The notes under the pieces were generated by a model. It worked only from the letters and a program-made list of their open reading frames with translations, was not told the origin of the DNA and did not search any database. Made by a program: the position numbers and the translations under genes. From Polynucleobacter sp. Tro8-14-1 (GTDB taxonomy: Bacteria; Pseudomonadota; Gammaproteobacteria; Burkholderiales; Burkholderiaceae), in assembly GCF_018881655.1 (NCBI RefSeq), contig NZ_JACVPX010000001.1:1-64000 (forward strand): DNA of 64,000 nt, written 5' to 3'. This document shows positions 64 through 15,901 of the stretch, piece by piece. The stretch's first letter is position 1, and the number at the start of each line of letters is the position of its first letter.

Positions 64-345
64 ATGAGTACAAGAAGACGGTTTACTGAAGAGTTCAAGT
101 TAGAGGCAGTCAAGCAAGTCGTTGAGCGAGGATTTGGGGTTCGAGATGTGGCTGCTAGGCTGGGCACCTCACCCCATAGTCTGTATGCCTGGATTAATAA
201 ATATGGTATTCCAGCCGAGCAGCGCTTAGTTCAAGATGATCAATTAGCTAAGCTTAAAAGACTGGAGGCGGAGCTGCGGCGGGTTACCGAAGAGCGCGAC
301 ATCCTAAAAAAGGCCGCCGCGTACTTTGCCAAGGAGTCCGGTTAA
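64..345 (+). CDS. IS3-family transposase OrfA (HTH subunit)
   Basis: A 93-residue N-terminal transposase subunit that binds the element ends. Residues about 5-45 form a helix-turn-helix (EAVKQVVERG then TSPHSLYAWINKYG) and residues about 60-90 a leucine-zipper-like coiled coil ending in the family hallmark ILKKAAAYFAKES. The start is supported by an AGGAGG ribosome binding site at 52-57. The stop at 343-345 lies downstream of a -1 slippery site, so a share of ribosomes should continue into orfB to make the full transposase. Confidence 0.93.
   Translation: MSTRRRFTEEFKLEAVKQVVERGFGVRDVAARLGTSPHSLYAWINKYGIPAEQRLVQDDQLAKLKRLEAELRRVTEERDILKKAAAYFAKESG
306..312 (+). promoter_or_regulatory. Programmed -1 frameshift site A AAA AAG
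   Basis: The heptamer A AAA AAG lies exactly in the orfA reading phase (CTA AAA AAG). A slip of one base back enters the orfB phase at 312, which is open from there to 1217. This is the standard IS3-family route to the OrfAB fusion transposase. Confidence 0.85.
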
Positions 346-392
346 AGTACGCCTTCATCAAAAAGCACCAGCATGAGCATGCCATCCGCACG

Positions 393-1217
393 ATGTGCAA
401 GGTTTTGCGAGTCCACCACAGTGGCTATTACGCTTGGCTTAAAGAGCCGCTCTCGTCTCGAGCGTATGAGAACCAGATGATCGTAGGTCAAATTAAGCAA
501 GCGTGGCTGGCAAGCGGCACCATCTATGGTTATCGCAAGATCCATGATGACCTGCAAGATCTGGGGATTGCTTGTGGAGAGCAACGGGTGTATCGATTGA
601 TGAAGGCACAGGGCCTGCGTTCCCAAACAGGCTACAAGCGTAAACCACGGCACCATACTGGTAAGCCTCATGTGGCAGCCCCCAATCACTTGGGTCAGCA
701 GTTTGATGTTTTAGAACCTAATGAGACCTGGGTAACGGACATTACTTATATCCGCACGCATGAGGGTTGGCTGTACTTGGCGGTGGTCTTGGATTTATTC
801 TCCCGCCAGATTGTAGGCTGGTCGATGCAAGGTCAAATGGATAAGGAGTTGGTGGTCAGCGCCTTGCTGATGGCTTTATGGAAACGAAAACCCAAGCAGA
901 CAGTGATGATCCACTCGGATCAAGGCAGTCAATTTTCTAGTTACGAGTGGCAAGCGTTCTTAAAAGAACATAACCTCAAACAAAGCATGAGTCGGCGCGG
1001 AAACTGCCATGACAATGCCGTAGTGGAGAGCTTTTTCCAACTACTCAAGCGGGAGCGGATTAAACGTAAAACCTATGCCAGCAGAGCAAAAGCAAGAGAA
1101 GATATTTTTGATTACATCGAAATGTTTTACAACCCGGTTAGACGCCATAGTTACAACAATGGACTTTCTCCGGTAAGATTTGAAGAGCAGTACCAAGCGA
1201 GGTTGGGAAGTGTCTAA
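393..1217 (+). CDS. IS3-family transposase OrfB (DDE catalytic subunit)
   Basis: Catalytic part of the transposase, normally made as an OrfAB fusion from 64 to 1217 by the -1 frameshift at 306-312. The first ATG is at 393, but the frame is open upstream to the slip site (KYAFIKKHQHEHAIRT precedes it). An HTH_21 region is followed by the rve integrase core with its DDE triad: D in ETWVTDITY, D in MIHSDQGSQF and E in NAVVESFF. The length is normal for the family and there is no internal stop. Confidence 0.94.
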   Translation: MCKVLRVHHSGYYAWLKEPLSSRAYENQMIVGQIKQAWLASGTIYGYRKIHDDLQDLGIACGEQRVYRLMKAQGLRSQTGYKRKPRHHTGKPHVAAPNHLGQQFDVLEPNETWVTDITYIRTHEGWLYLAVVLDLFSRQIVGWSMQGQMDKELVVSALLMALWKRKPKQTVMIHSDQGSQFSSYEWQAFLKEHNLKQSMSRRGNCHDNAVVESFFQLLKRERIKRKTYASRAKAREDIFDYIEMFYNPVRRHSYNNGLSPVRFEEQYQARLGSV

Positions 1218-2104: not shown

Positions 2105-2233
2105 AGCTTAATTTCAGAATTACGTTTGTGCGACCTGAATTATTTAGAGTCCGTTAAACCAACGGTACAGCGTCAGGGCTGCGATAGACTGTTGCTGATC
2201 ACAAAGCAATCAATTGCCCTAAAGTTAGTTAAC

Positions 2234-3943
2234 TTAAAAAATAAATTTATCTAACTGTGGACCAATAAATAAATCCTTACCATTCTTAATGGTCTTCACA
2301 ATCTGAATATCCTTAATTTCCATTGGGTCTACTTTCATTGGATTGCGATCAAGAATCACCATGTCCGCAAGTTTTCCAGCTGTAATAGTGCCCTTTGATG
2401 CTTCTTCTTTGTACTGATATGCAGGCACAGCAGTAAAACCACGCAGAGCGGTATATGGATCTATGCGTTGAGCAGGTCCTAAGGTGCTCCCTCCATAGGT
2501 CTTGCGATTAACCGCAGTCCAAATCGTAAATAATGCACTTGGCCCTGATGATGGCGTGTCATTATGCAGTCCAAATTGCATATCTTTTGCTTTGGCCAAA
2601 TTGAGCGGAACCATATTGCTAGCCCTCTCGTCCCCTAAAATCTGTCTATACACATCGCCATACATCCAAATGTGGTTAGGCATAAATTGGGGCAGGATTT
2701 TATTCGCCTTGTATTGGTCAAGCTGATCATCACGAACAAAGAATGAATGTGAGATTACTGATCTGCGATCTTCAGAAATTCCCGTTTCTTTTATTGCCTT
2801 GGTAATTCCAGAAAGCGCCATATCTATACCAGCATCCCCATTGGAATAACCAAAGTACTGGATATTTTTTTCGTAAGCTAGCTTTGCGTACTTATAAACC
2901 AAATCCTGAGAAGCAACAGCCATCCCGCGCCATTCTTTTGGAAATCCTGTGGTGTCGTTATAAGGCTTGGTGAAATAGGCCAAACGTAATTGTGGTGCAC
3001 CATCTGTAGAGACCAATATTCCAGCAACCTTAAAGCCGCCATCACCCTTGGTATAGACTCCAAAAGGATAATTTTTATTAGTTTCAAGTAATTGATCAAC
3101 CACATCATAGGTGGGCAGCGCAATCAGATCTAAGCTGATCACATTACGATCAACTGCTTGGCGCATATTACTAATATCTTGAATCGTAGTTTCATAACTT
3201 TGCGCAGTAGTGTATCCATTTGAGACATAGATCTGTTGGGCTTTGCGATAAGTTTCCATCATTAAATCTTGAGAGTACTTACCGAATACCTTCGCTGTTG
3301 CCTCGAAATTAGGATCGCCAATTAACTCACCAGTAAGTTTTCCTGTCTTTGGATCAACGGGCAGAATGCCTTGTGTCACTTTAGTGGCTTTGGTAAATCC
3401 TAGCTTCTTTAGCCCCGCAGTATTCACAATCCCGGTCAGGGTAGAAATATTATTAACAAATACTGGTTGATTAGGAAATGCTGCATCTAACTGAGCAATG
3501 GTTAAAGGGCCGTCGGCAAGAAAAGCGTCTGCATACTCTGCGCCAATAATCCAACCGTTAAATGGTCTTGCTTCTGCTTTCAAGCGGTCTATTAACTGCT
3601 TAGTAGTTTTCGGTGGATTTTTTGAAAAGTACCCCAAATTGACAGCGAGAGTGTTCTGAGCAATCAGAGTAAAGTGGCCCCAGGCATCTATAAACCCTGG
3701 CAATAAAGTTTGACCTTTTAAATCCTGCATTACTGGATTAGCGCCGGCTCCATTTAAAGCGTCTCGCAGATTACCGACATAAGCGATCTTCTTGCCCTTC
3801 ACTACGACTGCTTCAACATACTGTGGCTTATCACTCTCCATCGTCAAGATATCACCATTGAAATAAATCACTGCATTATCGGCAAAGACCGGGGCTGCTA
3901 GCGAAAGAAAAACTGCAGAGAAAATAATTTTGAGGATACGCAT
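2234..3943 (-). CDS. Exported amidohydrolase of the YtcJ/AepA-like (amidohydrolase_3) family
   Basis: A 569-residue protein with a cleavable signal peptide (MRILKIIFSAVFLSLAAPVFA), so it is probably periplasmic. The TIM-barrel metal-dependent hydrolase fold is suggested by VVVKGKKIAYVG near the N-terminus, LLPGFIDAWGHF (about residues 79-90), VISHSFFVRDDQL (about 383-395) and a late GLHNDTPSSGP motif. The C-terminal composite barrel carries GKLADMVILDRNP. In most relatives the first metal motif reads D-x-H-x-H. Here the first histidine is Trp (DAWGHF), which may change metal binding. The substrate cannot be read from sequence. It is followed by the disrupted recombinase and preceded by an amide hydrolase gene with its own terminator. 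Confidence 0.82.
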   Translation of the reverse strand: MRILKIIFSAVFLSLAAPVFADNAVIYFNGDILTMESDKPQYVEAVVVKGKKIAYVGNLRDALNGAGANPVMQDLKGQTLLPGFIDAWGHFTLIAQNTLAVNLGYFSKNPPKTTKQLIDRLKAEARPFNGWIIGAEYADAFLADGPLTIAQLDAAFPNQPVFVNNISTLTGIVNTAGLKKLGFTKATKVTQGILPVDPKTGKLTGELIGDPNFEATAKVFGKYSQDLMMETYRKAQQIYVSNGYTTAQSYETTIQDISNMRQAVDRNVISLDLIALPTYDVVDQLLETNKNYPFGVYTKGDGGFKVAGILVSTDGAPQLRLAYFTKPYNDTTGFPKEWRGMAVASQDLVYKYAKLAYEKNIQYFGYSNGDAGIDMALSGITKAIKETGISEDRRSVISHSFFVRDDQLDQYKANKILPQFMPNHIWMYGDVYRQILGDERASNMVPLNLAKAKDMQFGLHNDTPSSGPSALFTIWTAVNRKTYGGSTLGPAQRIDPYTALRGFTAVPAYQYKEEASKGTITAGKLADMVILDRNPMKVDPMEIKDIQIVKTIKNGKDLFIGPQLDKFIF

Positions 3944-4004
3944 AAATGGCCGAGGTATTAAGGTTTTGAAATTTTAATGAACAAATAAACCTAGTTTGAT
4001 GCAC

Positions 4005-4034
4005 TAAAAAATAAACCACCCAAAGGCGGTTTAT
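4005..4034 (-). terminator. Rho-independent terminator of the linear amide hydrolase gene
   Basis: A hairpin formed by ATAAACC (4011-4017) and GGTTTAT (4028-4034), with two more inner pairs, is followed on the minus strand by a U-rich run (A-run at 4005-4010). It lies just after the stop codon of the gene ending at 4043. Confidence 0.8.
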
Positions 4035-4042
4035 CTACTAAT

Positions 4043-5164
4043 TTATTTTAAGAGTTCTGCTGTCAAATCGTTTTGTGGGTAAGGTAATTTATCCACTAAC
4101 CAGCTTTTCGTTTTTCCAGATTTAAACATTTGGTTCAAATCAATCTCGATAAAGTTGGTACGACTTGCATAATTAGCAATCTTCATCTTGTTGTTTTTTA
4201 AATCCTTCAGATTGATCCACTGCGTGTAATCAGAGACTACCTGCTTGCCATCAATAGATCTTGCAACTCCCATAGGAATGTCCACATTATCTAAAATATG
4301 ACCCGTTAACGCAACAGCATCAATGCTATTGCTAGGCTGATAGGCAAGCTGTCTGAGATAAGCAGCTCTGACAAAACGCGATGGTGGCGTGTAATCCGCT
4401 GGTAAGCCAATCAAACCACCGCCCTGTCCTAACTCAGTTACATTAACTTTGCCAACAGTTACAGAGGGGGTAGCAGTTGCTGTGAGTGACAAATAGTTGC
4501 GTACGTTATTCAGGTGCCAATCATAGGTTGGAGCATTGGTTAAGACGCCTGCAAGATTATTGTGGATAACCATTTGTCCTTTTACAAACTCAATCACGAT
4601 ACTCTCACCACTTCGATCAGTTAAAACAAAATGCAACCATGGTGGGGTTGGTAAACCCTTCACCTCACTTGGATCAAACCAAACTTTATATTTAGGTAAT
4701 TCATTACGCAGCTCTTTGACTGTAGCAAACATCCCCAAAATAAAGCCGCCTAAATTGAGAATCGAAACGTAGTTTTTGTCTTGCGGGCTGACTGTCTGGT
4801 ATTCAGTAAAGCCTGGCAAGAAGTTTCCACTAATCGCAAGACCAGCTTCATTTTGACCCTCTAAGTAGGCAGGTGGTCCTGGTAGGATGGCTGGTGAGAT
4901 ACCTGCAAATCCATATTTACTCGACAAACTGCTTGCAGGTAATTTCATTGAACTAGGCGCAGTTAAGGCGATAGCTGTACCTTTGGGATTGACGGTTAAT
5001 TGCCACTTCATATCAAAAGCCCACTCCATTGTTCTACCCGCAACAACAGAGCCATCTTTTGCAGTGATATTCACAGCAGTACATGCCTCACTCAAAAAGG
5101 GGGCAAATACTAAGCTTAGCGAGAGTGATGTAGCAATAATTTTATGAGTGATGATTTGTTTCAT
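4043..5164 (-). CDS. Linear amide C-N hydrolase (choloylglycine hydrolase / penicillin V acylase family)
   Basis: A 373-residue Ntn-type amidase. A signal peptide ends just before Cys28 (FLSEACTAV), which would become the N-terminal nucleophile after cleavage, as in Gram-negative penicillin V acylases. Other family positions are visible: Arg44 in GRTMEW (with Glu where bile salt hydrolases have Asp), the Asn in VLTNAPTYDW and the Arg in PSRFVRAAYL. The protein is probably periplasmic and cleaves an amide. Some Gram-negative members act on N-acyl homoserine lactones, but the substrate here is unknown. The start at 5164 has an AAGGA-like site upstream. A terminator follows the gene. Confidence 0.85.
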   Translation of the reverse strand: MKQIITHKIIATSLSLSLVFAPFLSEACTAVNITAKDGSVVAGRTMEWAFDMKWQLTVNPKGTAIALTAPSSMKLPASSLSSKYGFAGISPAILPGPPAYLEGQNEAGLAISGNFLPGFTEYQTVSPQDKNYVSILNLGGFILGMFATVKELRNELPKYKVWFDPSEVKGLPTPPWLHFVLTDRSGESIVIEFVKGQMVIHNNLAGVLTNAPTYDWHLNNVRNYLSLTATATPSVTVGKVNVTELGQGGGLIGLPADYTPPSRFVRAAYLRQLAYQPSNSIDAVALTGHILDNVDIPMGVARSIDGKQVVSDYTQWINLKDLKNNKMKIANYASRTNFIEIDLNQMFKSGKTKSWLVDKLPYPQNDLTAELLK

Positions 5165-5210
5165 ATGAATCCTTATATAAAGTCTGGTGTCAGCCTTCTA
5201 ACGCTTTTGT

Positions 5211-6041
5211 TTATTTCAAAATGACTAAAGTTGCTGTGGCACGAGCACCCCATCCTGACGGACCACCTGGAGTATTACTAATGTAATACATAGGGCCAGC
5301 GGCAAACTGCAAAGGCACGCCATCAAATACCATTAATTTCGATACGCCGACATATAAGGGGTTGGAAGTACGATGCGTGTCGTAGTTATATTGCGCCTCC
5401 ATATTCACGGTATAAGTAAATGCGTCCTTGTTGGTGAAAGCGACAAACGGTTGGCCATATAAATTGTTTTGCGTGCCAAAGCTTGGATTGCCACCTACAC
5501 TCCAAGACTGATAACCTAGCAATCCATAAGTCCAGGGACCATGACGATTGAGAACTACACCCGTCACACCAGCACCAGTTTGTTGTGAGCCAAACTTGCC
5601 GCTATTGCCCGAGGGAGATACAGCATAGGGACCCACCCCCCAGATCCAAGATGAATTGGTGTTAGGTGCATAGAACGATTCCACCGTAACACTAGCAATG
5701 CCATAACCCGAAAATGATTGTCCATTCGCAGCCTGAACACTGACCTCTCTTACACCGGCAACAATCGGGCGAACAATAAAAGTATCTCCGCCACCAAGAT
5801 CAAATGGGGTTACCGGCTGAAAGAGCGAGGTCTGCTCTGAACCCGCCTGATTTTTACCGACACCACGACTAAATTCGTATTGCAGCGGTACCGAAATCAT
5901 ATTGGCAATCGGGTTGGCTAGTTTTTTAGCAATGCCGACCTTATCCACACCCCCATCAGGAGCGCTACTGCTTTGAGCAGCTACTAGGCTAGACAATGTA
6001 GTCGCTGTGATAACGACAAGAATACGTTTGAATGTTTTCAT
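5211..6041 (-). CDS. Predicted outer-membrane beta-barrel protein (transporter-like)
   Basis: A 276-residue exported protein with a signal peptide ending around VAAQS. The segment AKKLANPIANMISVPLQYEF is typical of a family of outer-membrane barrels often annotated as putative transporter. The rest alternates hydrophobic and polar residues rich in Gly, Tyr, Phe and Asn, as in barrel strands, and ends with a hydrophobic strand (ARATATLVILK). It sits 18 bp downstream of another barrel gene on the same strand, so the two are probably co-transcribed. The cargo is unknown. Confidence 0.75.
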   Translation of the reverse strand: MKTFKRILVVITATTLSSLVAAQSSSAPDGGVDKVGIAKKLANPIANMISVPLQYEFSRGVGKNQAGSEQTSLFQPVTPFDLGGGDTFIVRPIVAGVREVSVQAANGQSFSGYGIASVTVESFYAPNTNSSWIWGVGPYAVSPSGNSGKFGSQQTGAGVTGVVLNRHGPWTYGLLGYQSWSVGGNPSFGTQNNLYGQPFVAFTNKDAFTYTVNMEAQYNYDTHRTSNPLYVGVSKLMVFDGVPLQFAAGPMYYISNTPGGPSGWGARATATLVILK

Positions 6042-6059
6042 GGGATCAGTGATTCAGAA

Positions 6060-6869
6060 TCAAAATTTAAAGGTAATGGCAGCTTGCGGACCCTTCATAG
6101 TTGTTTTTTGCAGAAGGCCATTACTATTCATGTCGTAGTACAGGGCGCGATAGGCTAAGGAGACGTCTATCCACTTATCAAAAGTCTTGCCTACACCAAT
6201 CATTCCTTGCCATGTCATATTGGTTGTGCCGCCACCCCCACCTATATCGGCATATAACGGGATATACCAAGTAGAGTCAGCCAAGCGATATCTGCCTTTG
6301 AGCCCAACAATTGGGTCTACAGTTGAGGTTGATTTCGAGTCACTGGCATGTAATGAAGTTCCATCCAAAACCAAACCAAGGGTGGCAGTAATCGCAATAC
6401 TTCTTACGCCAACCAATCCGTCAAAGTAGGCATCTTTATTATTTATAACGGTATATGTTGCAGCGCCAGTAAGAATGGTCTGCTGCAAAGTTGCGCTAGT
6501 GGCAAACCTTGCTGGAACCGCTCCTTGAGCTGTTGGTGCCGTAGTACTGATAGTTTGATTCTGTTGCAATGTAGCGGAGACTAAATCCCCCATGATCCCC
6601 CAATTACCATAGTGAGCCTCTGCAGCAATCATTCCACCAGCTTTAAGATCGCCAAGAACATTGCTAGATGACAAAACTGCTGTATTCAAATATTTGTCAT
6701 TAAAAAATAATGTTGAGCTAATTCCAGGTGACCATAAATATGGGGTTACCTCAAAACGCCATTGATCAGAGACTTTTGGAATTGGGGATCCATCTGATTG
6801 CGCTTGGGCTAGCGACATAAGAAGGGCAACACATCCAGCCAAAGTTAATTTCAGGGCTTTGTGAAACAT
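6060..6869 (-). CDS. Predicted outer-membrane beta-barrel protein, hypothetical
   Basis: A 269-residue protein with a signal peptide (LAGCVALLMSLAQA) and a mature start WRFEVTPYLWSPGIS, a pattern seen at the first strand of many hypothetical outer-membrane proteins. It ends in the terminal-strand signature AAITFKF with a C-terminal Phe, which suits recognition by the barrel assembly machinery. It is the first gene of a likely two-gene unit with the barrel protein at 5211-6041. No specific function is assigned. Confidence 0.7.
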   Translation of the reverse strand: MFHKALKLTLAGCVALLMSLAQAQSDGSPIPKVSDQWRFEVTPYLWSPGISSTLFFNDKYLNTAVLSSSNVLGDLKAGGMIAAEAHYGNWGIMGDLVSATLQQNQTISTTAPTAQGAVPARFATSATLQQTILTGAATYTVINNKDAYFDGLVGVRSIAITATLGLVLDGTSLHASDSKSTSTVDPIVGLKGRYRLADSTWYIPLYADIGGGGGTTNMTWQGMIGVGKTFDKWIDVSLAYRALYYDMNSNGLLQKTTMKGPQAAITFKF

Positions 6870-7208: not shown

Positions 7209-8927
7209 CTAGCTTTGCTTATATGTAAGCGCCGATGTGATCGCAGACTTGGTAAGTGGTAATCGCTCTAATTTGGCTAGCTTAGCCTTCAAGTCAGGCA
7301 ATCGTTGATAAATCATCCAGAGCAATATTCTTTTGCATGGATTCTCTTCAAATAATTGGAGCGCTGTTTCTTTAACTTGCTGCGCCAGGGTTTCGTCCCG
7401 AGCATCCCAATCAACATTTGAATGATTTTGGCGGGGAGCTTTACTTAATTTAGCCGATTCCTCTATAAGCCATTCACGGTTGTGTCGATACAGCCACATG
7501 AATGTGGCCGGCTCTAGAACTCTCACTGCCTTCACTCCAAGATTTGGGTTATTTCTAATGACGACTTGCCAAGCTTCACGATGACTTTCTTGAGCATTTC
7601 TAAATCGCGCCTGATGCCATGCTTCCGAAAGGCCAATTTCAGTGCTTAGTAATTTGTTAACTGTTGTAATTGAAATATCGTGAGTTGCGGTGATGACTTT
7701 TTTATCATCCCCGTTCTTTAACGCCCTGATCATTTCGCCTCTAATCTCAGGAGTCATTTTGCTTGGGCGGGTGGGAACTTTAATTCCTGCTTTGGTTGCC
7801 CATGCCGCTGCCGTTGCGAAATCAATTTCCAAATCCTTGGCGGCACCAGTAATAGTCCGTCCCTCTTTAGTCAAAAGGTTGATCAACTTAGTTTTCTTGG
7901 GATTATCTGCCGTGATCTTTGGCGGTGATAAATCGGGTTTGATTGAAATGTCTTCCGCGAAGTTCTCATACGCATGGATGAATTGATCCCAGCCGCCATA
8001 AAGCCAATTTATCCAAACCAGATGGCGCAACGGGTGCGTCCCCGTTCGAGGCGCAATCATCTTTCTGGCAAAAGTAATCGCCTCATCTACGGTGTTCGGC
8101 AATGCCCTAAGTTCTGGAGTAACGCGCAGCACCTGTGTGTACTGTGAAAATTGAACCCCCAACCCCTTTGGCTTGATTTGTAACCCAGACTCTTTAAGAA
8201 GCCCCCGATCTCTTAGTCGAGCCAAATAGCATTGCTGTAGCCGAGTTGGGTCAAATAAGAAGGACTCCGGAAGGGTTGCTATAGAAATTGATGACTGGGC
8301 TAACTTCAAAAGTGACGCATTAACCTGGGGTTGGCTTGGCTCGACTGAAGCAAATGGTGATTCAAGTTCATTTAGGTTGGGTAGGCACCAGAAAAATCTC
8401 TCAACACCAGTGGATTTGATGCTCGAAGTAAGTAACCACTCACTGTGAATTGGGCAAATCCATACTCCTGGCAGCTGATGACTTCTATGCCAATACGCCA
8501 CACGATGATTTTGCACGTCCTCGCCTAAGCATTTAGGGCAAGCTTTAAGAGGGTGATTGGCTCTAAACCGACTAGTAAGTATTCCTAGATTCCACTTTAA
8601 ATACCCTATGCCCTCACCCCGCATTGCTGCAATCGCCGAAGTTTTTATGTGTTCTTGAGCGAGGGGTAAATAGAAGGGGAGGATGGAATGGCGATAAATA
8701 ATTTCATCTGGACCGCCCAATACACCATCTGCGGCAGCAGCTAAATAGTCAATGCGAGAGGGAAAATCATGCGCCAATCCTTGGAGCTTGTGCCCAAATA
8801 ATTGCTGGCAAGTGCTGGAGGGTTTGTAGTTTTTGGAGAGATGGTGGTGCCTGGAGCAAATGCTAAATAGAGTTTCATCTGGAAGCCAGCGTAAGTTGAT
8901 GGCAACAGAATCATCAAAATGATTCAT
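7209..8927 (-). CDS. tnsD: TnsD-type target-site selector of a Tn7-like transposon
   Basis: A 572-residue TniQ-family protein. The N-terminal half carries the TniQ zinc finger with Cys130-x2-Cys133 (ACPKCLGED) and Cys158-x2-His161 (WICPIHSEWLL), joined by the family string YWHRSHQLPG. The C-terminal half (about 345-572) has repeated helix-turn-helix-like segments and the TnsD signature FMWLYRHNREWL followed by WDARDETLAQQV. In Tn7 this protein binds a fixed chromosomal site and recruits TnsC. The site recognised here is not evident. It is the last gene of a minus-strand unit with the membrane protein (8 bp upstream) and the XRE regulator. Confidence 0.9.
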   Translation of the reverse strand: MNHFDDSVAINLRWLPDETLFSICSRHHHLSKNYKPSSTCQQLFGHKLQGLAHDFPSRIDYLAAAADGVLGGPDEIIYRHSILPFYLPLAQEHIKTSAIAAMRGEGIGYLKWNLGILTSRFRANHPLKACPKCLGEDVQNHRVAYWHRSHQLPGVWICPIHSEWLLTSSIKSTGVERFFWCLPNLNELESPFASVEPSQPQVNASLLKLAQSSISIATLPESFLFDPTRLQQCYLARLRDRGLLKESGLQIKPKGLGVQFSQYTQVLRVTPELRALPNTVDEAITFARKMIAPRTGTHPLRHLVWINWLYGGWDQFIHAYENFAEDISIKPDLSPPKITADNPKKTKLINLLTKEGRTITGAAKDLEIDFATAAAWATKAGIKVPTRPSKMTPEIRGEMIRALKNGDDKKVITATHDISITTVNKLLSTEIGLSEAWHQARFRNAQESHREAWQVVIRNNPNLGVKAVRVLEPATFMWLYRHNREWLIEESAKLSKAPRQNHSNVDWDARDETLAQQVKETALQLFEENPCKRILLWMIYQRLPDLKAKLAKLERLPLTKSAITSALTYKQS

Positions 8928-8935
8928 GGGTTAAA

Positions 8936-9316
8936 TTATTTCTTTTTTGATGGCTCCCCAACTTTTGGAACCAAATGCAGTCCCTCCATTTTTTTATCGG
9001 CAGGTATTTTATGGGGGCCCATCACTACTTTAATTGGGTTAATGCCCGATCTATCCATGCACACACAGGCGCACAAAAATAACCCCATTCCACCAAGAAT
9101 TAATATCCCCTTTAGCGCTACATCTATTGAGCCATCTTGTTTTACTAGCGGCAACCAAAATGCAGTCAATATGAAGATGGCGGCTAAGATAAAACAGCCA
9201 ATACTCCTTTTGAAATGCAGGTCAAAGTTAGGCTTGGGTTGTAACGGTTTCTGTGGACTGATGCCCTTAAACGCGGCTTCTATTGTATTTTTAACAAATC
9301 TTAAGTGATCGGTCAT
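8936..9316 (-). CDS. Small membrane protein with two predicted transmembrane helices
   Basis: A 126-residue protein I do not recognise. Residues about 38-56 (IGCFILAAIFILTAFWLPL) and about 69-86 (GILILGGMGLFLCACVC) are hydrophobic enough to span the membrane. The N-terminal region is basic and proline-rich and the C-terminus ends in lysines (PSKKK). It lies 9 bp after the XRE regulator and 8 bp before tnsD, so it is probably co-transcribed with both. It could be cargo or a transposon accessory protein. The sequence does not decide. Confidence 0.7.
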   Translation of the reverse strand: MTDHLRFVKNTIEAAFKGISPQKPLQPKPNFDLHFKRSIGCFILAAIFILTAFWLPLVKQDGSIDVALKGILILGGMGLFLCACVCMDRSGINPIKVVMGPHKIPADKKMEGLHLVPKVGEPSKKK

Positions 9317-9325
9317 GGCATTGGG

Positions 9326-9730
9326 CTATGCAGCCATAGCAAGGGTTAGGGTATTGTTAATAAGTGATGGGCTGATCTCGTTGGCATCTATAAAGTGCTC
9401 ATAAAGCATCTTGACTACCCACTCTTCTCTTTCGGGAGGCAATTCGATTCCCTTGGACAGGCACCCAGCTCTAATTGCACGAGAAATCATCATAAGCATT
9501 TCCCAATCAATTGCTTTGGCATTAGTGGTGACATCCGTCTGACCTGTAATTAAAAACTTCACATCAAAATGAAGGGTGTCTGCCAGAATGGCCAGGGCTT
9601 TGTTATCCATATTAGCCTTGCCTGTTTCATACATAGCAACAGCCGAGCGCCCAATGTTAAGTACATTGGCCACATCTGCTTGTGTCAGGCCTAGCCTCTT
9701 CCGCTCTTTTGATAAACGTTCGCCGAACAT
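9326..9730 (-). CDS. XRE-family helix-turn-helix transcriptional regulator
   Basis: A 134-residue protein whose N-terminal HTH_3 domain (about 3-60) reads ERLSKERKRLGLTQADVA then GRSAVAMYETGKANMD, typical of Cro/CI-type repressors. The C-terminal half is helical and of unknown role. It is divergent from the gp16-like gene and first in the unit leading to tnsD. By position it probably represses its own unit, the divergent gene, or both. Two TTGACA copies lie in the shared upstream region. Confidence 0.85.
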   Translation of the reverse strand: MFGERLSKERKRLGLTQADVANVLNIGRSAVAMYETGKANMDNKALAILADTLHFDVKFLITGQTDVTTNAKAIDWEMLMMISRAIRAGCLSKGIELPPEREEWVVKMLYEHFIDANEISPSLINNTLTLAMAA

Positions 9731-9758
9731 AAATAAGTTCTTAGTTGTGAGAGTCTTG

Positions 9759-9764
9759 ATTATA
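9759..9764 (-). promoter_or_regulatory. Candidate -10 box for the XRE-membrane protein-tnsD unit
   Basis: TATAAT on the minus strand, 29 bases upstream of the XRE start codon at 9730. A good -35 box is not obvious at normal spacing, so activation or overlap with operators is possible. On the plus strand, TTGACA occurs at 9776-9781 and again at 9794-9799, an 18-bp-spaced direct repeat that may be operator half-sites or a -35 element. Confidence 0.45.
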
Positions 9765-9802
9765 GGTCTTAAATATTGACATAGTGATTAATTTTGACAA
9801 AA

Positions 9803-10096
9803 ATGAGAGACATGACAACATTAACACCCAAGCAGGCAAAAGACTGGTTTGATAGGCACGGCGTATCGGTATCTGATTGGGCTCGGGCGCACCACTTTTC
9901 GCCTTCAGTTGTCTTTTCTTTGTTGGCCGGGCGCTGCACGGGCAAACGTGGTCAGGCTCATCTTGCTGCGGTGGCGTTGGGGCTAAAACTAGGAGCCTCT
10001 CCATATGAGGCATCGCCACTTGAGTTTGAGCCTAAGTTTCCCGTAGGTGATGTATTGATTCAAAAAAGGAGCCAAAACAATGTAAGGCAAAAGTAA
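9803..10096 (+). CDS. Small DNA-binding protein resembling BcepMu gp16
   Basis: About 97 residues. The core TPKQAKDWFDRHGVSVSDWA, HHFSPSVVFSLLAGR then KRGQAHLAAVALGLK matches the layout of the phage BcepMu gp16 family, a short helix-turn-helix group found in Mu-like phages and mobile elements. The start is uncertain: ATG at 9803 or 9812, or TTG at 9794, none with a convincing ribosome binding site. It is divergent from the XRE regulator and followed by a terminator, so it is probably a separate regulatory switch gene rather than part of the tnsABC operon. Confidence 0.78.
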   Translation: MRDMTTLTPKQAKDWFDRHGVSVSDWARAHHFSPSVVFSLLAGRCTGKRGQAHLAAVALGLKLGASPYEASPLEFEPKFPVGDVLIQKRSQNNVRQK

Positions 10097-10130
10097 GTTT
10101 TAGGGCTTTTAAAGGGGCTCATAAAGCACA

Positions 10131-10166
10131 AAACCCAAAAACCTCGGCAAAGGAATTTGGGTTTTT
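10131..10166 (+). terminator. Rho-independent terminator after the gp16-like gene
   Basis: AAACCCAAA (10131-10139) pairs with TTTGGGTTT (10156-10164) and is followed by more T residues. It separates the gp16-like gene from tnsABC, so tnsA needs its own promoter in 10167-10315. Confidence 0.75.
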
Positions 10167-10237
10167 AAAGGTAGTGCGAGTCAAGAATGCACCTGACTTG
10201 TCTCCACTATCTCGAAAAACAACGCTGTTGTCAAGCG

Positions 10238-10257
10238 ATTGGATAAGTGCGTCCAAT
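10238..10257. promoter_or_regulatory. Dyad upstream of tnsA, candidate operator or TnsB-related site
   Basis: ATTGGA (10238-10243) and TCCAAT (10252-10257) form a perfect 6-bp dyad with an 8-bp spacer, 58 bases before the tnsA start. A second short dyad, TGCCC-TCCT-GGGCA, lies at 10281-10294. Either could be a regulator site. No convincing -10/-35 pair was found. Confidence 0.35.
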
Positions 10258-10315
10258 TTTTACTAAATTAATCGCGGAATTGCCCTCCTGGGCATATAGA
10301 TAGAGGAGTTATTGA

Positions 10316-11296
10316 ATGGGAAATAGCACCCGTCCAGGCGCAGCGCGCCTAAAGGAAATATTACGTAGACAGAGCCCACCTAGATGTGGGAAAGAGTATG
10401 AACCCGCAATAAAAGCATTTAGAGAGGAGGCTCCATCCATAAGTTGGGTCTCACGGGTTTATTGGAATTTACTCGATCGAAAAGTCCATTTTTTATCCCG
10501 GGTTGAACAGGCGGCTGGTTTTTTGGCCATGAGTAGCCCTCAAATTTGGGAGCTGCAAGAACAACGTATGTTGCCGGTAATAGATAGCCCTCATCCGCTA
10601 TCGTATTTCGGCAAAGAGAGTGATCGCCTTTTGCCAAGATTGCCCGGGACATTGGAGGTGGCAGAGAAGTTGGGGCTAATCAAACATCACCCGTTAATCA
10701 AGGTGCCAAATAAAGATGGATCAGTTGATGAGATTTTATTTCCTTGGATTGGAGATCTCCTTTTATATCTTAAAGATAGTCAGGGTTGTTACTGTGTCAA
10801 TTGGACTATTAAAGGAGTTAAGGATAACTTTGAAAACTCAAACTTAAATTCACTCAAGGGAAAAACTTTCAATCGAAATGATGAAAAATCCTGGGCTCGG
10901 CATGTAATTGAAGAGTCGATGTATGCGGCAGCGGGAATTCGAACGGTGCGTATTACAGGTGAGGATTTGAATGTAGACATTAACAATAACTTAAGACAGC
11001 TTTGGCTTTGGCATCACCGAGAAACAAAGTTAAGTTCGGCGGAAGCGCAAGAGATTATTGGTGAGTTCGCAATAGCCATGATTAAGGAGGTGCCACCGAT
11101 TGAAACAGTTTTATATCTTCACGCAGAGTTTGGATTTGAGATAGACGATATTAAAGCCGTACTGTATCAAGCAATTTCAAAGCGATTTCTAAAGGTAGAT
11201 TTGACTTGGCCTATTATTTTGAGCGAACCCCTAAATAGAGAAGTTTTCAATATATGGGATAGGACGGCGCACCTATTTGCAAGGAGCTCATCATGA
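10316..11296 (+). CDS. tnsA: TnsA-type endonuclease of a Tn7-like transposon
   Basis: A 326-residue restriction-like endonuclease that in Tn7 cuts the 5' strands so that the element moves by cut-and-paste. The catalytic pattern is recognisable: Glu64 in LSRVEQAAG, Asp147 in PWIGDLLLYL, and Lys166 in NWTIKGVK. Tn7 TnsA has Gln-x-Lys at the last site, whereas here it is Thr164-Ile-Lys166. The C-terminal part (about 200-326) is helical, as in the TnsA C-terminal domain that contacts TnsC. The start has an AGAGGAG site at 10302-10308. It overlaps tnsB by 4 bp (ATGA). Confidence 0.88.
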   Translation: MGNSTRPGAARLKEILRRQSPPRCGKEYEPAIKAFREEAPSISWVSRVYWNLLDRKVHFLSRVEQAAGFLAMSSPQIWELQEQRMLPVIDSPHPLSYFGKESDRLLPRLPGTLEVAEKLGLIKHHPLIKVPNKDGSVDEILFPWIGDLLLYLKDSQGCYCVNWTIKGVKDNFENSNLNSLKGKTFNRNDEKSWARHVIEESMYAAAGIRTVRITGEDLNVDINNNLRQLWLWHHRETKLSSAEAQEIIGEFAIAMIKEVPPIETVLYLHAEFGFEIDDIKAVLYQAISKRFLKVDLTWPIILSEPLNREVFNIWDRTAHLFARSSS

Positions 11297-13371
11297 GCTT
11301 GGGATTTCAAATGGGAACACAACTGATAGCGAGTGAAGGCTATCGGATGCTAGAAAAAAACATCACCTATTATTTTCTTCGTAGCTATTCAAAATGTGGT
11401 GCGTCGAGTGCCTATGTTCAGCTGTCTCATTTCACAGAAAAAGAGGGGGATAAAAATTCTCCTATGCCAATTCCATTCTTGATCGTGATGAATCGCGATG
11501 AATTTGAGAGCGGAGTTCGGATGAGCAAAATTAGTCGATGTGAAGTTCAGAGATCGATGCCCCCCTGGTTAAGTCATCTAGAAGGCAAAAATCTTAAGCA
11601 GCTCAACTCCGAAAAAGGGATGGAAACGCCGCATGAAGAAAGAATTTTGGCTAGACTAAAAATTATTGAACCATTAATAGCGGACTGGCGAAACTTGCTG
11701 GAAAAAGATGATCCAGATTATGAAATAAACCAATATGCTAAAAAATGCCGACCAGTCCAAAAAGGGTCTCGAGTCCGGCTTTGGTTTTATCTCTATTTAG
11801 TATTTGGTCAAAACCCCGACGTTCTTCATTACCGCACTAAAAACCTTGGAACGTGGTTAAGGGGGGAATCGCGGTCTCACGTTAAGCGAGGGGCTCCATC
11901 CATTACCCATGGAAAAGAGCATGGTTATAACGCAGATTCTGACATGATCGAGAGGATGTTAAAAGGCTACGCCAGAGAAGTGGGGCTTGGAATTGAGTTA
12001 ACGACTATCTATGTTCGAGTTTTGACCAAAAATTTTGGCTGCAAGGTAAAGAATGCAAAAGATGGGCTCAAAGAGTACTTTCATCCGATGGGACACCCAT
12101 ATCCATCTATGCGAATGTTTCGGTATTACATAGACAAAGAATTCGGAAAATACCAGGTTCAAGAAAGGCTTAAGGGCAATGTGCTTGCACGCAGAAAAAA
12201 TAAGCCACATCAAGGATCCTTTTCATCGGCTGTGTGCAATATTGGCGAACATGTTGAAGGTGATGCATACGTAGTGGAAGAGGTCCCTAGGGGAAGTATT
12301 GAAGGAAGCAGCCTAGGGAATCTATTCGTGGCCCGATATGTCGATGGCATGATTAGTCTTCGTCTAGGAATTGGATTTTCAATGGGCGCTGAAAGAGCAA
12401 GCGCCTACAGGATGGCAAAATTTTGTTGCGCGATTTCAAAAGTTAAATTTTGCCAATTATTTGGAATCACCATTACGGAAGATCAATGGCCAAGCATTGG
12501 GATTCCTCCTCACCTCATAGAAGATCGAGGTGTAGGCAGCACTCAAAAAGCAAAATCAAGTCTTAAGATTGGCGAAAGCGTCATAGACGAAATGCCGCCT
12601 TCGGGAATGGGGCAATCCAAGCCAACAGTCGAGTCTGGAAATCCGTATGAACGAAAAAATGAAGATAGAGCAAGTCATTTTCAATCAGATCTAAGGCTCT
12701 TTCAGTTGACTGTGCGAGAAATCCTTCGAGTTATTGCAGAAAATGATACCGCCAAGATCCTGGCTAAGTTGCCCCCAGATGTCATGTTTGACATTAACAG
12801 AGCAACCCCAAAATCGGTATTTAATCGACTTAATGCACTCGGAAGAAATGATTTAATACAAATTTCATATGAAGATGCTGTAAGAAGTTTTCTTGATCCA
12901 ATCGAGGTGGTATTAAAAAAAGATGGGGTCTACTTTAAGAATCAACTGTATTCATCCCCGACGCTTATTGAATTGGGATTTCTGGATCGAAACTGCTCTT
13001 TTGTAAATCAAAAATTGAGTGGTTACATGATGGCAGTCAATCTTCGGCATATTTGGGTTGACATAGGTGGGATTTTAATTGAGCTAATGATCGCTTGGAA
13101 AACTAGATCAGGCAAGAATGCTGGACAAATTTGCCTTCAAGAATTGGAGATGATGGAGCAAAAAAGAAAAGAGCTTACAAGGGCTACCGAACACCATCGT
13201 CTGGCTGGGATTGGCGAAATGGAGATGCAATTTTCTGAAGAGACGGGGTTACAGTGGAATGCAGGCTCACGGAAAAAGGGCCGGGCAAAAAGAAAAACAA
13301 AAATTGCAATTCAAGAAAATAAAGAAGCAATTTTCATAAGCCATGGGACGGGCGGGGGTGATGAGGAATGA
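11293..13371 (+). CDS. tnsB: TnsB-type DDE transposase of a Tn7-like transposon
   Basis: A 692-residue transposase that binds the element ends and performs 3'-end cleavage and strand transfer. The RNase H-like core contains Asp324 (HVEGDAYVV), Asp411 (PHLIEDRGVG) and Glu447 (SKPTVESGN), giving a DD(35)E spacing that matches Mu/TnsB enzymes. The segment GFSMGAERASAYRMA between the aspartates is typical. N-terminal DNA-binding regions occupy about 1-300. The C-terminal tail is basic (SRKKGRAKRKTK), which suits TnsC or DNA contact. It is translationally coupled on both sides, to tnsA and tnsC, by ATGA overlaps. Confidence 0.93.
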   Translation: MSLGFQMGTQLIASEGYRMLEKNITYYFLRSYSKCGASSAYVQLSHFTEKEGDKNSPMPIPFLIVMNRDEFESGVRMSKISRCEVQRSMPPWLSHLEGKNLKQLNSEKGMETPHEERILARLKIIEPLIADWRNLLEKDDPDYEINQYAKKCRPVQKGSRVRLWFYLYLVFGQNPDVLHYRTKNLGTWLRGESRSHVKRGAPSITHGKEHGYNADSDMIERMLKGYAREVGLGIELTTIYVRVLTKNFGCKVKNAKDGLKEYFHPMGHPYPSMRMFRYYIDKEFGKYQVQERLKGNVLARRKNKPHQGSFSSAVCNIGEHVEGDAYVVEEVPRGSIEGSSLGNLFVARYVDGMISLRLGIGFSMGAERASAYRMAKFCCAISKVKFCQLFGITITEDQWPSIGIPPHLIEDRGVGSTQKAKSSLKIGESVIDEMPPSGMGQSKPTVESGNPYERKNEDRASHFQSDLRLFQLTVREILRVIAENDTAKILAKLPPDVMFDINRATPKSVFNRLNALGRNDLIQISYEDAVRSFLDPIEVVLKKDGVYFKNQLYSSPTLIELGFLDRNCSFVNQKLSGYMMAVNLRHIWVDIGGILIELMIAWKTRSGKNAGQICLQELEMMEQKRKELTRATEHHRLAGIGEMEMQFSEETGLQWNAGSRKKGRAKRKTKIAIQENKEAIFISHGTGGGDEE

Positions 13372-14696
13372 ATCCTTGGATAAACCAGTATGCAATTTTT
13401 AAATCGCTAGAGGAGATAAAGAAAAAATCCAAAATTAAAGCTGTGTCATTAAGAAATTTAGAGCAGCAAGTAATTTCAGTGGCATGTGCTCAATTACAGC
13501 AAGGCCTTGAAAGTGTTTTTGTCCCCACTTCGCAAGTTTGCGAGATCATTCAAACGGTCGGTATGGCTGCTTACGCACATTCTCTAAAAGAATATCCGAA
13601 CAATAAGGTATTTCTAGAGCGCGTGTATGACCCTCCAGCAATCACTAATTTTTATGTGCCGTTTTTGCTAACGGGTCCCGCTGGAACCGGGAAGTCACAA
13701 CTAATGAAGGCAATTGAGAGGCTTCTTACAAAAGGCTTAATTATAAAAACTGATCCTAGTCATATATTCCCGCTGGTGGGGGTAAAGAGGGTTACAGTGA
13801 ATCAACGAAGGTCTATAAATCAACTGCTTCTATCGCTTGTGGAATCTGAAATTTCAGAAAGTGGTTTAAAGATAAAAAATTCAGATATTGCGGCTTTATG
13901 CCCCCAAGTTCTTTATAGGTCAGGGTGTAGTTTATTAATGATTGATGAGTTGCAATTTATGTCGCAAAGTAGTGCTAATACATTATTAGCTCAATCACTT
14001 ATGGCCCTAAGTTATATAGGATTGCCGTTTATGGTGAATGCAAATTACAGTGTTTGCCATAAATTAATGAGTAGAAAGCAAGAGGAAAAACAGCGGCTCT
14101 TAACCAATCCAATAATGATGTTTCCCGATATTTCTGGTTCTGCTGATTGGTTGGAGGTTTTAAAGGAATACCAAGTAGTGGTGCAGTATTGCTATTCATT
14201 TAACTTAGTCAATCATGAGGAAAAGTTGTGGAGCTACTGTGCGGGACTGAAGAGAGTGTTAATTAAACTTCTAGTAAAAAGCTATGAGCTAGTAAGAAAG
14301 AAGGGGGTGTTTTTAGTTACCGAATTAGATGTGGAAAAAGCCTATTTATCTTTGGGATTTTCCGTTGATCGAGGCGACGTCGAATTGATCATTTCATCTG
14401 GTAGCACCGGACCGGCTGGCCGTCTCGATTTAACACCGCCGTTTGCAATTCCACTAACAATAAAAGAAGAGTATGAGCGTGGGCTTAAACGGGCTCGGGC
14501 AACAAAAGCAATGGAGGCGGCGATCGATGCTTCATTAACTCTTCAAGAAAGAAGGGCATTAGATAGCATTAAAGAGCAAGATTCGATTGAAAGTCGCAAT
14601 CCAATTCCAATAAAACAAAAAGTTAATCGTAAGTCAAAGCCCAGCCCAGATACCTTGCGTGAAAACTTTACTAAATTTATGGGTAACAAAAATTAA
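13368..14696 (+). CDS. tnsC: TnsC-type AAA+ ATPase of a Tn7-like transposon
   Basis: A 442-residue AAA+ ATPase that links the target selectors (TnsD/TniQ) to the transposase. Walker A is GPAGTGKS (103-110) and Walker B is SLLMIDELQ (188-196), with a sensor-like MVNAN near 223. The C-terminal region is charged (KQKVNRKSKPSPD), as in TnsC tails that bind TnsA/TnsB. It is third in the tnsABC operon and ends 28 bp before the convergent tniQ stop, with no obvious terminator between them, so antisense read-through is possible. Confidence 0.92.
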   Translation: MNPWINQYAIFKSLEEIKKKSKIKAVSLRNLEQQVISVACAQLQQGLESVFVPTSQVCEIIQTVGMAAYAHSLKEYPNNKVFLERVYDPPAITNFYVPFLLTGPAGTGKSQLMKAIERLLTKGLIIKTDPSHIFPLVGVKRVTVNQRRSINQLLLSLVESEISESGLKIKNSDIAALCPQVLYRSGCSLLMIDELQFMSQSSANTLLAQSLMALSYIGLPFMVNANYSVCHKLMSRKQEEKQRLLTNPIMMFPDISGSADWLEVLKEYQVVVQYCYSFNLVNHEEKLWSYCAGLKRVLIKLLVKSYELVRKKGVFLVTELDVEKAYLSLGFSVDRGDVELIISSGSTGPAGRLDLTPPFAIPLTIKEEYERGLKRARATKAMEAAIDASLTLQERRALDSIKEQDSIESRNPIPIKQKVNRKSKPSPDTLRENFTKFMGNKN

Positions 14697-14724
14697 GGCG
14701 GTAAATGGATAATTTGCGATGCTA

Positions 14725-15648
14725 TCAAATCACCTCTTTTAGCAATTTTTTAGTTGATAAATTTGAAAATATTCTTAATGCCTCATCAGTTGATTTGCTG
14801 ATAAAAAGCGAAAACATAACTAAAAGAGTTGATTGGAACTGCTCTAGACTTTTTTGCCTAACCAAGCCATCTAAGGGTCCGAAATATTCATTCGGTTGTT
14901 TTGTATGAAACCTTGGCACAATCTCCTTTAGAAAACTTTTCGGATATTGTGCGAATATAAGATCGCTAAAGTAAATCGTATCCTGCCTATATATGGATTT
15001 GTGCGACGTGAATCTATTAAGTTTTTTATCTAAAGATATTCGCACCAACCCAGAATTTTCTTTTATGGGCGTTTCTAGTATTGTTTGCAATGCTTCAACT
15101 AGGATGTGTACTGTTTTTGATTTTTTCAATTCCTCAGCTTGCGGGGCAAATGTAAACTTATTTTGACGATGCCAGAAATCTGGACGGAAATCGAAAACGT
15201 CACTCCTGGGGACATGTACAAGTAAATTTTTATGATGCTTTTCGCACCAATGTAGTCCTGGTATTTGATGCGATCTACGCCAATAACTAAATCCCCAAAA
15301 GTTTAAATCTTCATCGATGCAGTGACCGCAGAAGTAGCCACCCTTCCTTAATGGCATCATTCCTCTTTTTCGTAATATTTGCGGGGATAAGAGGGGTAAA
15401 AATTCAGAATCTTCTGGTATTACTGCATGAGATAAGGGTAGCAACGAATGTAGGGATACATATTGAATTAATGGCATTTTTAGTAAGTTAGCTGTTGTAG
15501 CTATAAACGACGGGGGGTGATCTGCGTCATTAGTTCGATAGATTTGATGCGCTTTACTGGTGGAGTGGTCTTTCAGCTGCTTTAAGAGCCTTAATCTACC
15601 CGCATGCCCACGACAAAATTCATCTGCCATGGGTTTTGCAATAAACAT
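14725..15648 (-). CDS. tniQ: Short TniQ-family target selector, convergent with tnsC
   Basis: A 307-residue TniQ protein. The zinc finger is Cys107-x2-Cys110 (YFCGHCIDED) and Cys135-x2-His138 (HWCEKHHKNL), joined by FSYWRRSHQIPG, the same layout as the TnsD protein in this element. It lacks most of the long C-terminal DNA-binding part of TnsD. In other Tn7-like elements a short TniQ next to a long TnsD can serve a second targeting route. Here there are no Cas proteins for it to work with. The opposite strand to tnsABC suggests separate regulation. The gene is AT-rich. Confidence 0.9.
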   Translation of the reverse strand: MFIAKPMADEFCRGHAGRLRLLKQLKDHSTSKAHQIYRTNDADHPPSFIATTANLLKMPLIQYVSLHSLLPLSHAVIPEDSEFLPLLSPQILRKRGMMPLRKGGYFCGHCIDEDLNFWGFSYWRRSHQIPGLHWCEKHHKNLLVHVPRSDVFDFRPDFWHRQNKFTFAPQAEELKKSKTVHILVEALQTILETPIKENSGLVRISLDKKLNRFTSHKSIYRQDTIYFSDLIFAQYPKSFLKEIVPRFHTKQPNEYFGPLDGLVRQKSLEQFQSTLLVMFSLFISKSTDEALRIFSNLSTKKLLKEVI

Positions 15649-15696: not shown

Positions 15697-15741
15697 AGAA
15701 AAAAGGCTATGATTTACGGACTAACTTTTAATAAATTTTAT

Positions 15742-15762
15742 AGCTCTGCGAAATCAAGAGCT
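15742..15762. repeat. Inverted repeat AGCTCT/AGAGCT in the tniQ-efflux intergenic region
   Basis: A perfect 6-bp dyad with a 9-bp spacer, roughly midway between tniQ and the efflux operon. It is a possible regulator site for either direction. The dyad is short, so chance is not excluded. Confidence 0.3.
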
Positions 15763-15836
15763 TAGACCCTTAATGCAAGACAGGCCTTATTGTCAGTGTT
15801 CACTCGCCTAAAGTTGTGGACAAAATTCAGTAGATA

Positions 15837-15862
15837 AATCAGGGCTTTACGAAGTCCTGATT
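15837..15862 (+). promoter_or_regulatory. Hairpin ahead of the RND efflux operon
   Basis: AATCAGGGCTT (15837-15847) pairs with AAGTCCTGATT (15852-15862) across a TACG loop, with one G-T pair. There is no long T run after it. It may be a regulator site or a weak terminator guarding the operon from read-through. Confidence 0.5.
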
Positions 15863-15901
15863 GGATTTCTGTGGTCAAATAACTCTTGTAAAAGAGGATA
15901 T

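Follow-up and report, generated by a model that had tools for sequence, protein, structure and literature searches.

The window analysed here (64,000 nucleotides of the forward strand of Polynucleobacter sp. Tro8-14-1, assembly GCF_018881655.1, contig NZ_JACVPX010000001.1, positions 1 to 64,000; the start of contig C5) carries the core genes of a Tn7-like transposon, at least ~23 kb long, that occupies attTn7 beside glmS and whose assembly is broken inside by a copy of an IS3-family insertion sequence (IS). Both ends of the element can be read, its TnsA, TnsB and TnsC are akin to those of Tn7, and it keeps together two diverged selectors of the TniQ family, a long TnsD and a short TniQ. The features are collected in Table 1.

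Table 1 Features of the element and its surroundings (window positions unless a locus is named; aa, amino acids)
Feature	Position	Strand	Remarks
IS3-family element	64..1217	+	C5 opens at its border; C11, the bearer of glmS and the proximal end, terminates in this IS too
Cargo: amidohydrolase, choloylglycine-hydrolase-family protein, two proteins without Pfam match	2234..6869	-
tnsD, 572 aa	7209..8927	-	TniQ core plus Pfam TnsD C-terminal region; glmS-type selector
126-aa protein	8936..9316	-	between xre and tnsD; function unassigned by family search
xre, XRE-type repressor-like protein	9326..9730	-	first gene of apparent xre-orf126-tnsD operon
BcepMu-gp16-like helix-turn-helix (HTH) protein	9794..10096	+	upstream of tnsA, divergent from xre; TIGR04111
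tnsA, 326 aa, predicted endonuclease	10316..11296	+	profile and fold match to Tn7 TnsA
tnsB, 692 aa, DDE transposase	11293..13371	+	Tn7 TnsB match
tnsC, 442 aa, AAA+ regulator	13368..14696	+	Tn7 TnsC match
Short tniQ, 307 aa	14725..15648	-	TnsD-core-like, without the C-terminal half of TnsD; convergent with tnsC
glmS-distal transposon end	15719..15801	-	two TnsB-like sites, 15779-15792 and 15719-15732, ~60 bp apart; terminus ~15,801
Host flank	15801..15901	+	directly follows glmS in 4 of 6 related genomes displayed
tolC-like gene	15902-17452		beyond host flank; named by reading only
Six amtB junctions in related loci	L090:2240-2300, L136:8643-8700, L169, L170, L171, L172

Core genes and extent of the element

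The frames of tnsA and tnsB overlap at 11293/11296 and those of tnsB and tnsC at 13368/13371, confirming the complete tnsA-tnsB-tnsC series with coupled starts described in a first-pass annotation of the DNA. TnsB matched Tn7 TnsB directly (2.1e-11) and by profile (1.1e-15), and TnsA matched Tn7 TnsA by profile (2.6e-11) and by fold (Foldseek, 1t0f_B, E 6.8e-13, for a model with a predicted local distance difference test score (pLDDT) of 92). For TnsC the best match was Tn7 TnsC (2.9e-8), with many other AAA/ABC proteins matching weakly as well. When profiles of TnsA, TnsB, TnsC and the short TniQ were made from the lineage described below, the best solved-structure match in the PDB was always a Tn7 protein. 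TnsA residues E82, D147 and K166, which we take to be catalytic by analogy with Tn7 TnsA, were unchanged in 37/37 aligned sequences, and TnsB D324, D411 and E447 in 8/8. Neither TnsA nor TnsB of the window reached a Pfam family at the cut-off (TnsA gave one chance-level match, 0.077).

The 572-residue protein matched both Pfam TnsD (5.8e-54) and TniQ (4.8e-15), and the opposite-strand, 307-residue protein facing tnsC matched Pfam TniQ alone (2.6e-6), in agreement with the assignments first made for them; a PF06527 search of the whole genome returned these two proteins only. Their lengths are those of the dual TniQ-TnsD class, in which one selector exceeds 400 aa and the other is much shorter. 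The gp16-like protein matched TIGR04111 at 1.4e-20 and has homologues in further loci of the lineage, and family searches with the 126-aa protein gave nothing above cut-off. The gene map also agrees that the order is not the classic one, tnsD being split off behind the XRE/gp16 module.

DNA to the right of ~15801 found some match in 31 of 61 related genomes searched, and in G004, G007, G019 and G024 the end of glmS directly precedes the sequence that follows 15801 in the window. These relatives imply that all of the DNA separating glmS from the tolC-like gene is an insertion. In the genome itself glmS sits on contig C11, where a matching inverted end starts 22 bp past the glmS stop codon; this proximal end begins TGATTACTGACAATAAGGCC... 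and pairs with TGAACACTGACAATAAGGCC (reverse complement) at the 15,801-side end. Each of the paired inverted ends has repeated TnsB-like sites, at which TnsB would be expected to bind, and the two junctions carry at best a probable 5-bp target duplication. C11 runs 8.4 kb past the proximal end and stops within the IS3 copy that opens C5, the element thus extending leftward beyond the start of C5 onto another contig; the IS3 has six matches in the genome, every one at a contig end. We infer the join of C11 to C5, and from it a total of ~23 kb, which is a minimum.

Together with the matches to Tn7 TnsA, TnsB and TnsC, these paired ends bear out a Tn7-like transposon with two TniQ-family selectors, and comparison with relatives places both tnsD and tniQ inside the ends, the alternative having been named beforehand as one that would speak against the proposal. 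The range 7209-15648 first assigned to the element is its core only: an element confined to that range was rejected, both ends lying outside it, the distal one at ~15,801 and the other on another contig. In many loci of the lineage a search for the glmS-distal end gave no result. At L081:17600-17700 and L116:19540-19620, transposon ends stand head to head within a few bases of each other, which looks like the arrival of a second related element at the same site.

The cargo block with the amidohydrolase and choloylglycine-hydrolase genes at 2125-6785 (also L062 7527-12171) has a 91% identical counterpart elsewhere in the related genome G004, in which no match to the window TnsB was found, and part of 2000-2210 recurs elsewhere in the genome (G000:C16). 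Two tyrosine-integrase pieces lie in the cargo, at 1233-2075 and L070 11457-12080; one is an N-terminal-type fragment cut at the IS3 and the other a 207-aa protein with Pfam Phage_integrase. The cargo adjoining glmS (L070 8024-11341) encodes a 1105-aa protein with a sub-cut-off match to a passenger-associated repeat, which by reading is autotransporter-like.

A lineage with two landing sites

A TnsB search of 151 genomes drawn from the genus matched the genome itself alone, and among 299 genomes drawn from the family 26 matched at E<=0.001, six of them (this genome included) at 1e-74 or better. Scanning GTDB genomes with an alignment of eight TnsB sequences, we identified 61 loci of this TnsABC lineage, chiefly in Pseudomonas and Burkholderiales. 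In a TnsB tree of 80 rows, a single change of label sets apart the 63 rows of the lineage. No TnsA among 37 members matched any Pfam family at 0.01, as opposed to 4/4 other Tn7-like TnsA proteins. TnsB likewise matched no Pfam family in any of eight further members; this gap was rejected as a special sign of the lineage, since the TnsB of R721 Tn7 itself reached only 0.0082 with rve and a control TnsB (L139) matched nothing. This is a distinct Tn7-like lineage, which may or may not be represented in the tree of Faure 2023.

glmS lay inside the fetched stretch in 16 of the 61 loci. In these and the window (17/17), the first TnsB-like site falls 27-36 bp past the glmS stop, and in 13/17 a second follows exactly 20 bp on (L101, L115 and L128 give the 20-bp spacing in another scan). 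We searched for glmS in 35 further genomes and found it in 34, from which six more glmS junctions of the same kind were read. Left out of the count are six loci whose glmS shares the contig at a distance of 10-60 kb (in L084 ~230 kb) and all the rest, with glmS on another contig or not placed.

A second TnsD clade (support 100), comprising L081, L083, L084, L085 and L124, lies away from glmS. In four of these five loci, and also in L090 and L136, an element end with tandem TnsB-like sites begins no more than ~30 bp past the stop codon of a gene resembling amtB (ammonium transporter), a name given by reading without a family search; the exception is L083, whose amtB is on another contig that has no such element end there. 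The search for amtB covered the whole genome for only 8 loci and the fetched stretch for 63. Site and TnsD type go together: among loci in which both are known, clade 1 gave 21 glmS and 0 amtB insertions and clade 2 gave 0 and 4 (Fisher 8e-5, with related loci not independent). The short TniQ accompanies 22/22 verified glmS loci and 5/6 amtB loci, one of which (L124) is loosely placed in the tree. The landing site thus follows the TnsD type, and TniQ persists whichever of the two sites is used. The amtB site is apparently a home site so far unreported.

A long TnsD-clade protein and a short TniQ-clade protein were both present in the fetched stretch of 37 of the 61 loci (40 with three loosely placed rows), with 10 loci showing TnsD only, 4 TniQ only and 7 neither. 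The DNA between stretch and glmS, once added, disclosed a TniQ homologue in L092 and L095, raising the dual loci to 39/61 (42 with loose rows) and the glmS loci with TniQ from 20 to 22, and leaving eight with TnsD only, in seven of which a contig end cuts the stretch short. In a TniQ-family tree of 103 rows, from which four fragments or short frames were excluded, TniQ and TnsD fall in separate groups: the window TnsD in a clade of 48 rows and the window TniQ in one of 22, each with a Shimodaira-Hasegawa-like approximate likelihood ratio test (SH-aLRT) value of 99. The ratio of nonsynonymous to synonymous substitution rates (dN/dS) was 0.14-0.29 for tniQ in seven pairs and 0.15-0.24 for tnsD in six pairs, with dS near saturation in some; the short TniQ is under purifying selection in the seven pairs tested. 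At L087 6974-8062, L123 6941-8062, L120 13369-14373 and L121 13423-14520, the TnsD-clade protein has just 335-374 aa and the TniQ is the longer (408-453 aa); a search for the target sites of L087 and L123 from shared borders was without result.

Homologues of xre occur in nine loci including the window. xre lies ahead of tnsD in four of them (the window, via the 126-aa gene, L115, L119 and L124) and ahead of tniQ in the other five (L081, L083, L084, L085 and L090). It stands opposite the gp16 gene where gp16 was found and elsewhere opposite tnsA, an arrangement from which we infer a phage-like switch set between a selector and the transposase and controlling both.

The short TniQ and a possible second pathway

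No CRISPR-like array was seen in either assembled part of the element, where the sole close three-copy repeat is inside the 1105-aa cargo gene, and none of the nine cargo proteins of the assembled element matched a Cas family in Pfam (three of the nine matched nothing). The earlier observation that no CRISPR or Cas genes go with the short TniQ thus holds for the assembled parts. Tn7 TnsE gave no tblastn match in 63 loci (the control record gave 93%) and no phmmer match in the frames of the window and the C11 part, and the TnsE family PF18623 found nothing in the genome, with no control genome matching it either. Neighbour clustering yielded no non-core gene conserved across the lineage among the best 45 clusters, and a partner of TniQ among conserved neighbours was rejected on this result. 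The non-core clusters hold xre/gp16, other HTH regulators and, judged by coordinates, small frames antisense to the core and genes beside glmS; a few others occur in at most seven loci, such as a Sir2-like gene (named by reading), and a 302-aa gene common to six loci had no Pfam match.

The short TniQ resembles the core of TnsD. Its AlphaFold model (pLDDT 85) gave E. coli TnsD(1-318) as the only match below 0.001, with a template modelling (TM) score of 0.59-0.61, followed by a chain of the I-B CRISPR-associated transposon (CAST) Cascade-TniQ-TnsC entry at TM 0.45 and, poorly, a chain of the VcCascade-TniQ entry at 0.22. The profile of its family reached the E. coli TnsD(1-318) chain at 3.4e-15 and other TniQ chains at 0.0017 or worse.

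Two among 72,556 plasmid records hold a strong relative, both from Pseudomonas, and 133 others match only weakly. Neither copy has glmS in the fetched stretch. In L031 the reading frames of both selectors are open; in L030 tniQ is truncated and the tnsC frame is split. The inverted ends of both copies were sought without result. These copies fit moves away from the home site without TnsE, two cases being thin evidence. One Pseudomonas plasmid, NZ_CP087161.1, has two lineage tnsB copies (86898-90094 and 126710-128719), and one of these matches is split in two, an IS5-family transposase being annotated inside it.

The first-pass annotation had suggested two possible targeting routes, which is plausible. 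On balance we favour, with modest confidence, an element in which TnsD carries out homing to glmS and the short TniQ serves a second, CRISPR-free pathway. A heteromeric TnsAB transposase would be switched on by TnsC. The C-terminal domain of the long TnsD would bind the 3' end of glmS and direct insertion ~22 bp past the stop, by analogy with Tn7. The short TniQ appears to retain just the TnsC-facing core of TnsD and so probably cannot read a specific DNA site alone; most likely it would bridge TnsC to another DNA-bound factor supplied by the host or a plasmid and not by a conserved neighbour gene. Such a pathway would take the place of TnsE. The xre/gp16 pair before tnsABC probably sets the timing of selector and transposase production, as its counterparts do in temperate phage. 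A bolder form of this proposal, in which a core-only TniQ has replaced TnsE and borrows an unencoded DNA-bound factor to enter mobile DNA, with the home site exchangeable from glmS to amtB by a swap of TnsD while TniQ stays, we advance tentatively, as somewhat less probable than its opposite.

Several observations weigh against these proposals. The second pathway is deduced from the lack of partners and from two plasmid copies only, one of them (L030) damaged. TnsE can diverge past detection, and PF18623 matched in no control genome. L107, with full flanks, shows TnsD without TniQ. The match of the TniQ model to TnsD(1-318) has a root-mean-square deviation of 6-7 Å; the short TniQs are united by a node with an SH-aLRT value of only 90, the window TniQ sits on a long branch, and the quick TniQ-family tree carries a program warning of long-branch joins. 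In the TnsB tree, the exact branch separating the lineage has support 0, and the surrounding branch (support 99) includes three long, fragment-like outside rows. As to the insertion itself, G035 and G013, two of the six relatives displayed, have something other than glmS at the flank, the 5-bp direct repeat is imperfect (ATTCG against ACTCG, which differ at one position, with the ends shifted by one base), C11 and C5 are unjoined in the assembly, and the same IS3 stands at other contig ends too.

TniQ and TnsD might instead act in one pathway, with the short TniQ joining the TnsD-TnsC complex at the home site as a structural or stoichiometric partner. Both TnsD types are accompanied by TniQ at the verified glmS (22/22) and amtB (5/6) loci, its model is nearest to the TnsD core solved with TnsC, and neighbour clustering offers no other partner gene, all of which would suit such a role. 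Classic Tn7, however, homes with TnsABC and TnsD, and eight loci have TnsD with no TniQ seen (seven are cut by contig ends, L107 is not). According to the parts of Faure 2023 consulted, moreover, the small TniQ of CAST I-D reduces homing by TnsD (PMC10293859). We regard this explanation as unlikely, albeit the most serious of the competitors. Another possibility is that the short TniQ is a regulator that vies with TnsD for TnsC and so holds homing back: in the same parts of Faure 2023, CyCAST homing dropped from 0.008% to 0.0006% with TniQ (PMC10293859), and tniQ is the gene behind xre in five of the nine xre loci. The CyCAST drop may, however, be a by-product of TniQ's own pathway, and a purely regulatory TniQ seems to us distinctly improbable. 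The notion that TniQ was left over from a CRISPR-associated pathway since lost can draw on its size, which falls in the CAST adaptor class (PMC10293859, parts consulted), and is disfavoured as highly improbable by the dN/dS of 0.14-0.29, the conservation of TniQ in Pseudomonas and betaproteobacterial clades, the way it matches the Tn7 TnsD core more closely than it does other TniQ chains, and the lack of a cas gene among the nine cargo proteins of the window element, the only cargo scanned for cas.

The lineage offers a clean natural set: TnsABC stays the same, TnsD comes in two types with a landing site each, and one orphan TniQ is conserved. With it, what an orphan TniQ targets can be tested directly. 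Should the amtB site prove sound, protein-guided insertion gains a further home site.

Comparison with known systems

The element resembles Tn7 (TnsABCDE, as in the R721 record L138) in its homologues of TnsA, TnsB, TnsC and TnsD, in its insertion beside glmS, and in the closely packed TnsB-like sites of its glmS-side end, which we take to resemble the Tn7 right end. It differs from Tn7 in having an extra TniQ and no detected Tn7-type TnsE, in its tnsD standing in a separate operon instead of one tnsABCDE operon, in core genes that lie near the glmS-distal end, and in a lineage TnsA unmatched by the Pfam TnsA models. A 2024 review describes TnsE homologues, in the parts consulted, as almost universal among glmS- and comM-targeting elements (PMC11406308), a rule from which the lineage appears to depart. 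Because the search of Benler 2021, in the portions consulted, used Pfam models including PF08721/PF08722 and PF00665 plus CAST alignments, the lineage was possibly under-sampled there.

A glmS-homing TnsD with a short TniQ is listed for CAST I-B1 in the consulted parts of the 2024 review (PMC11406308); the element shares this pair with CAST I-B1 (AvCAST, Tn7743), but no Cas genes or array were found in its assembled parts. Tn6022 is likewise a Tn7-like element with a short TniQ, whereas insertion here is beside glmS and not in comM; no neighbour resembling TnsF was seen here, no homology search with TnsF having been made. The tnsABCD genes of P. putida KT2440 and W619 are listed in a description that, in the parts consulted, names no second selector, and the KT2440 locus numbers PP_5404-5407 put tnsD beside tnsA (PMC3056050); judged from these numbers and not from sequences, KT2440 tnsABCD may perhaps belong to this lineage.

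A close precedent is Faure 2023, which in the parts consulted reports 998 dual TniQ-TnsD loci of repeated origin and also notes numerous short TniQs for which no partner could be identified (PMC10293859). Its dual loci without Cas likewise pair one long and one short TniQ-family protein with no identifiable partner, whereas the glmS/amtB split and the xre/gp16 module are not among its results examined, and the words amtB and Pseudomonas are absent from its main text (PMC10293859). The literature searched, outside which most subscription papers fall, contained no description of the lineage's two-selector layout or of the amtB site. On the question whether the genes fall into a well-described element of the same layout, the answer is divided: loci that pair TniQ with TnsD and lack Cas already form a known class (PMC10293859, parts consulted), locus numbers put the tnsD of KT2440 beside tnsA (PMC3056050, parts consulted), and the lineage described here is a distinct one, with a conserved orphan TniQ.

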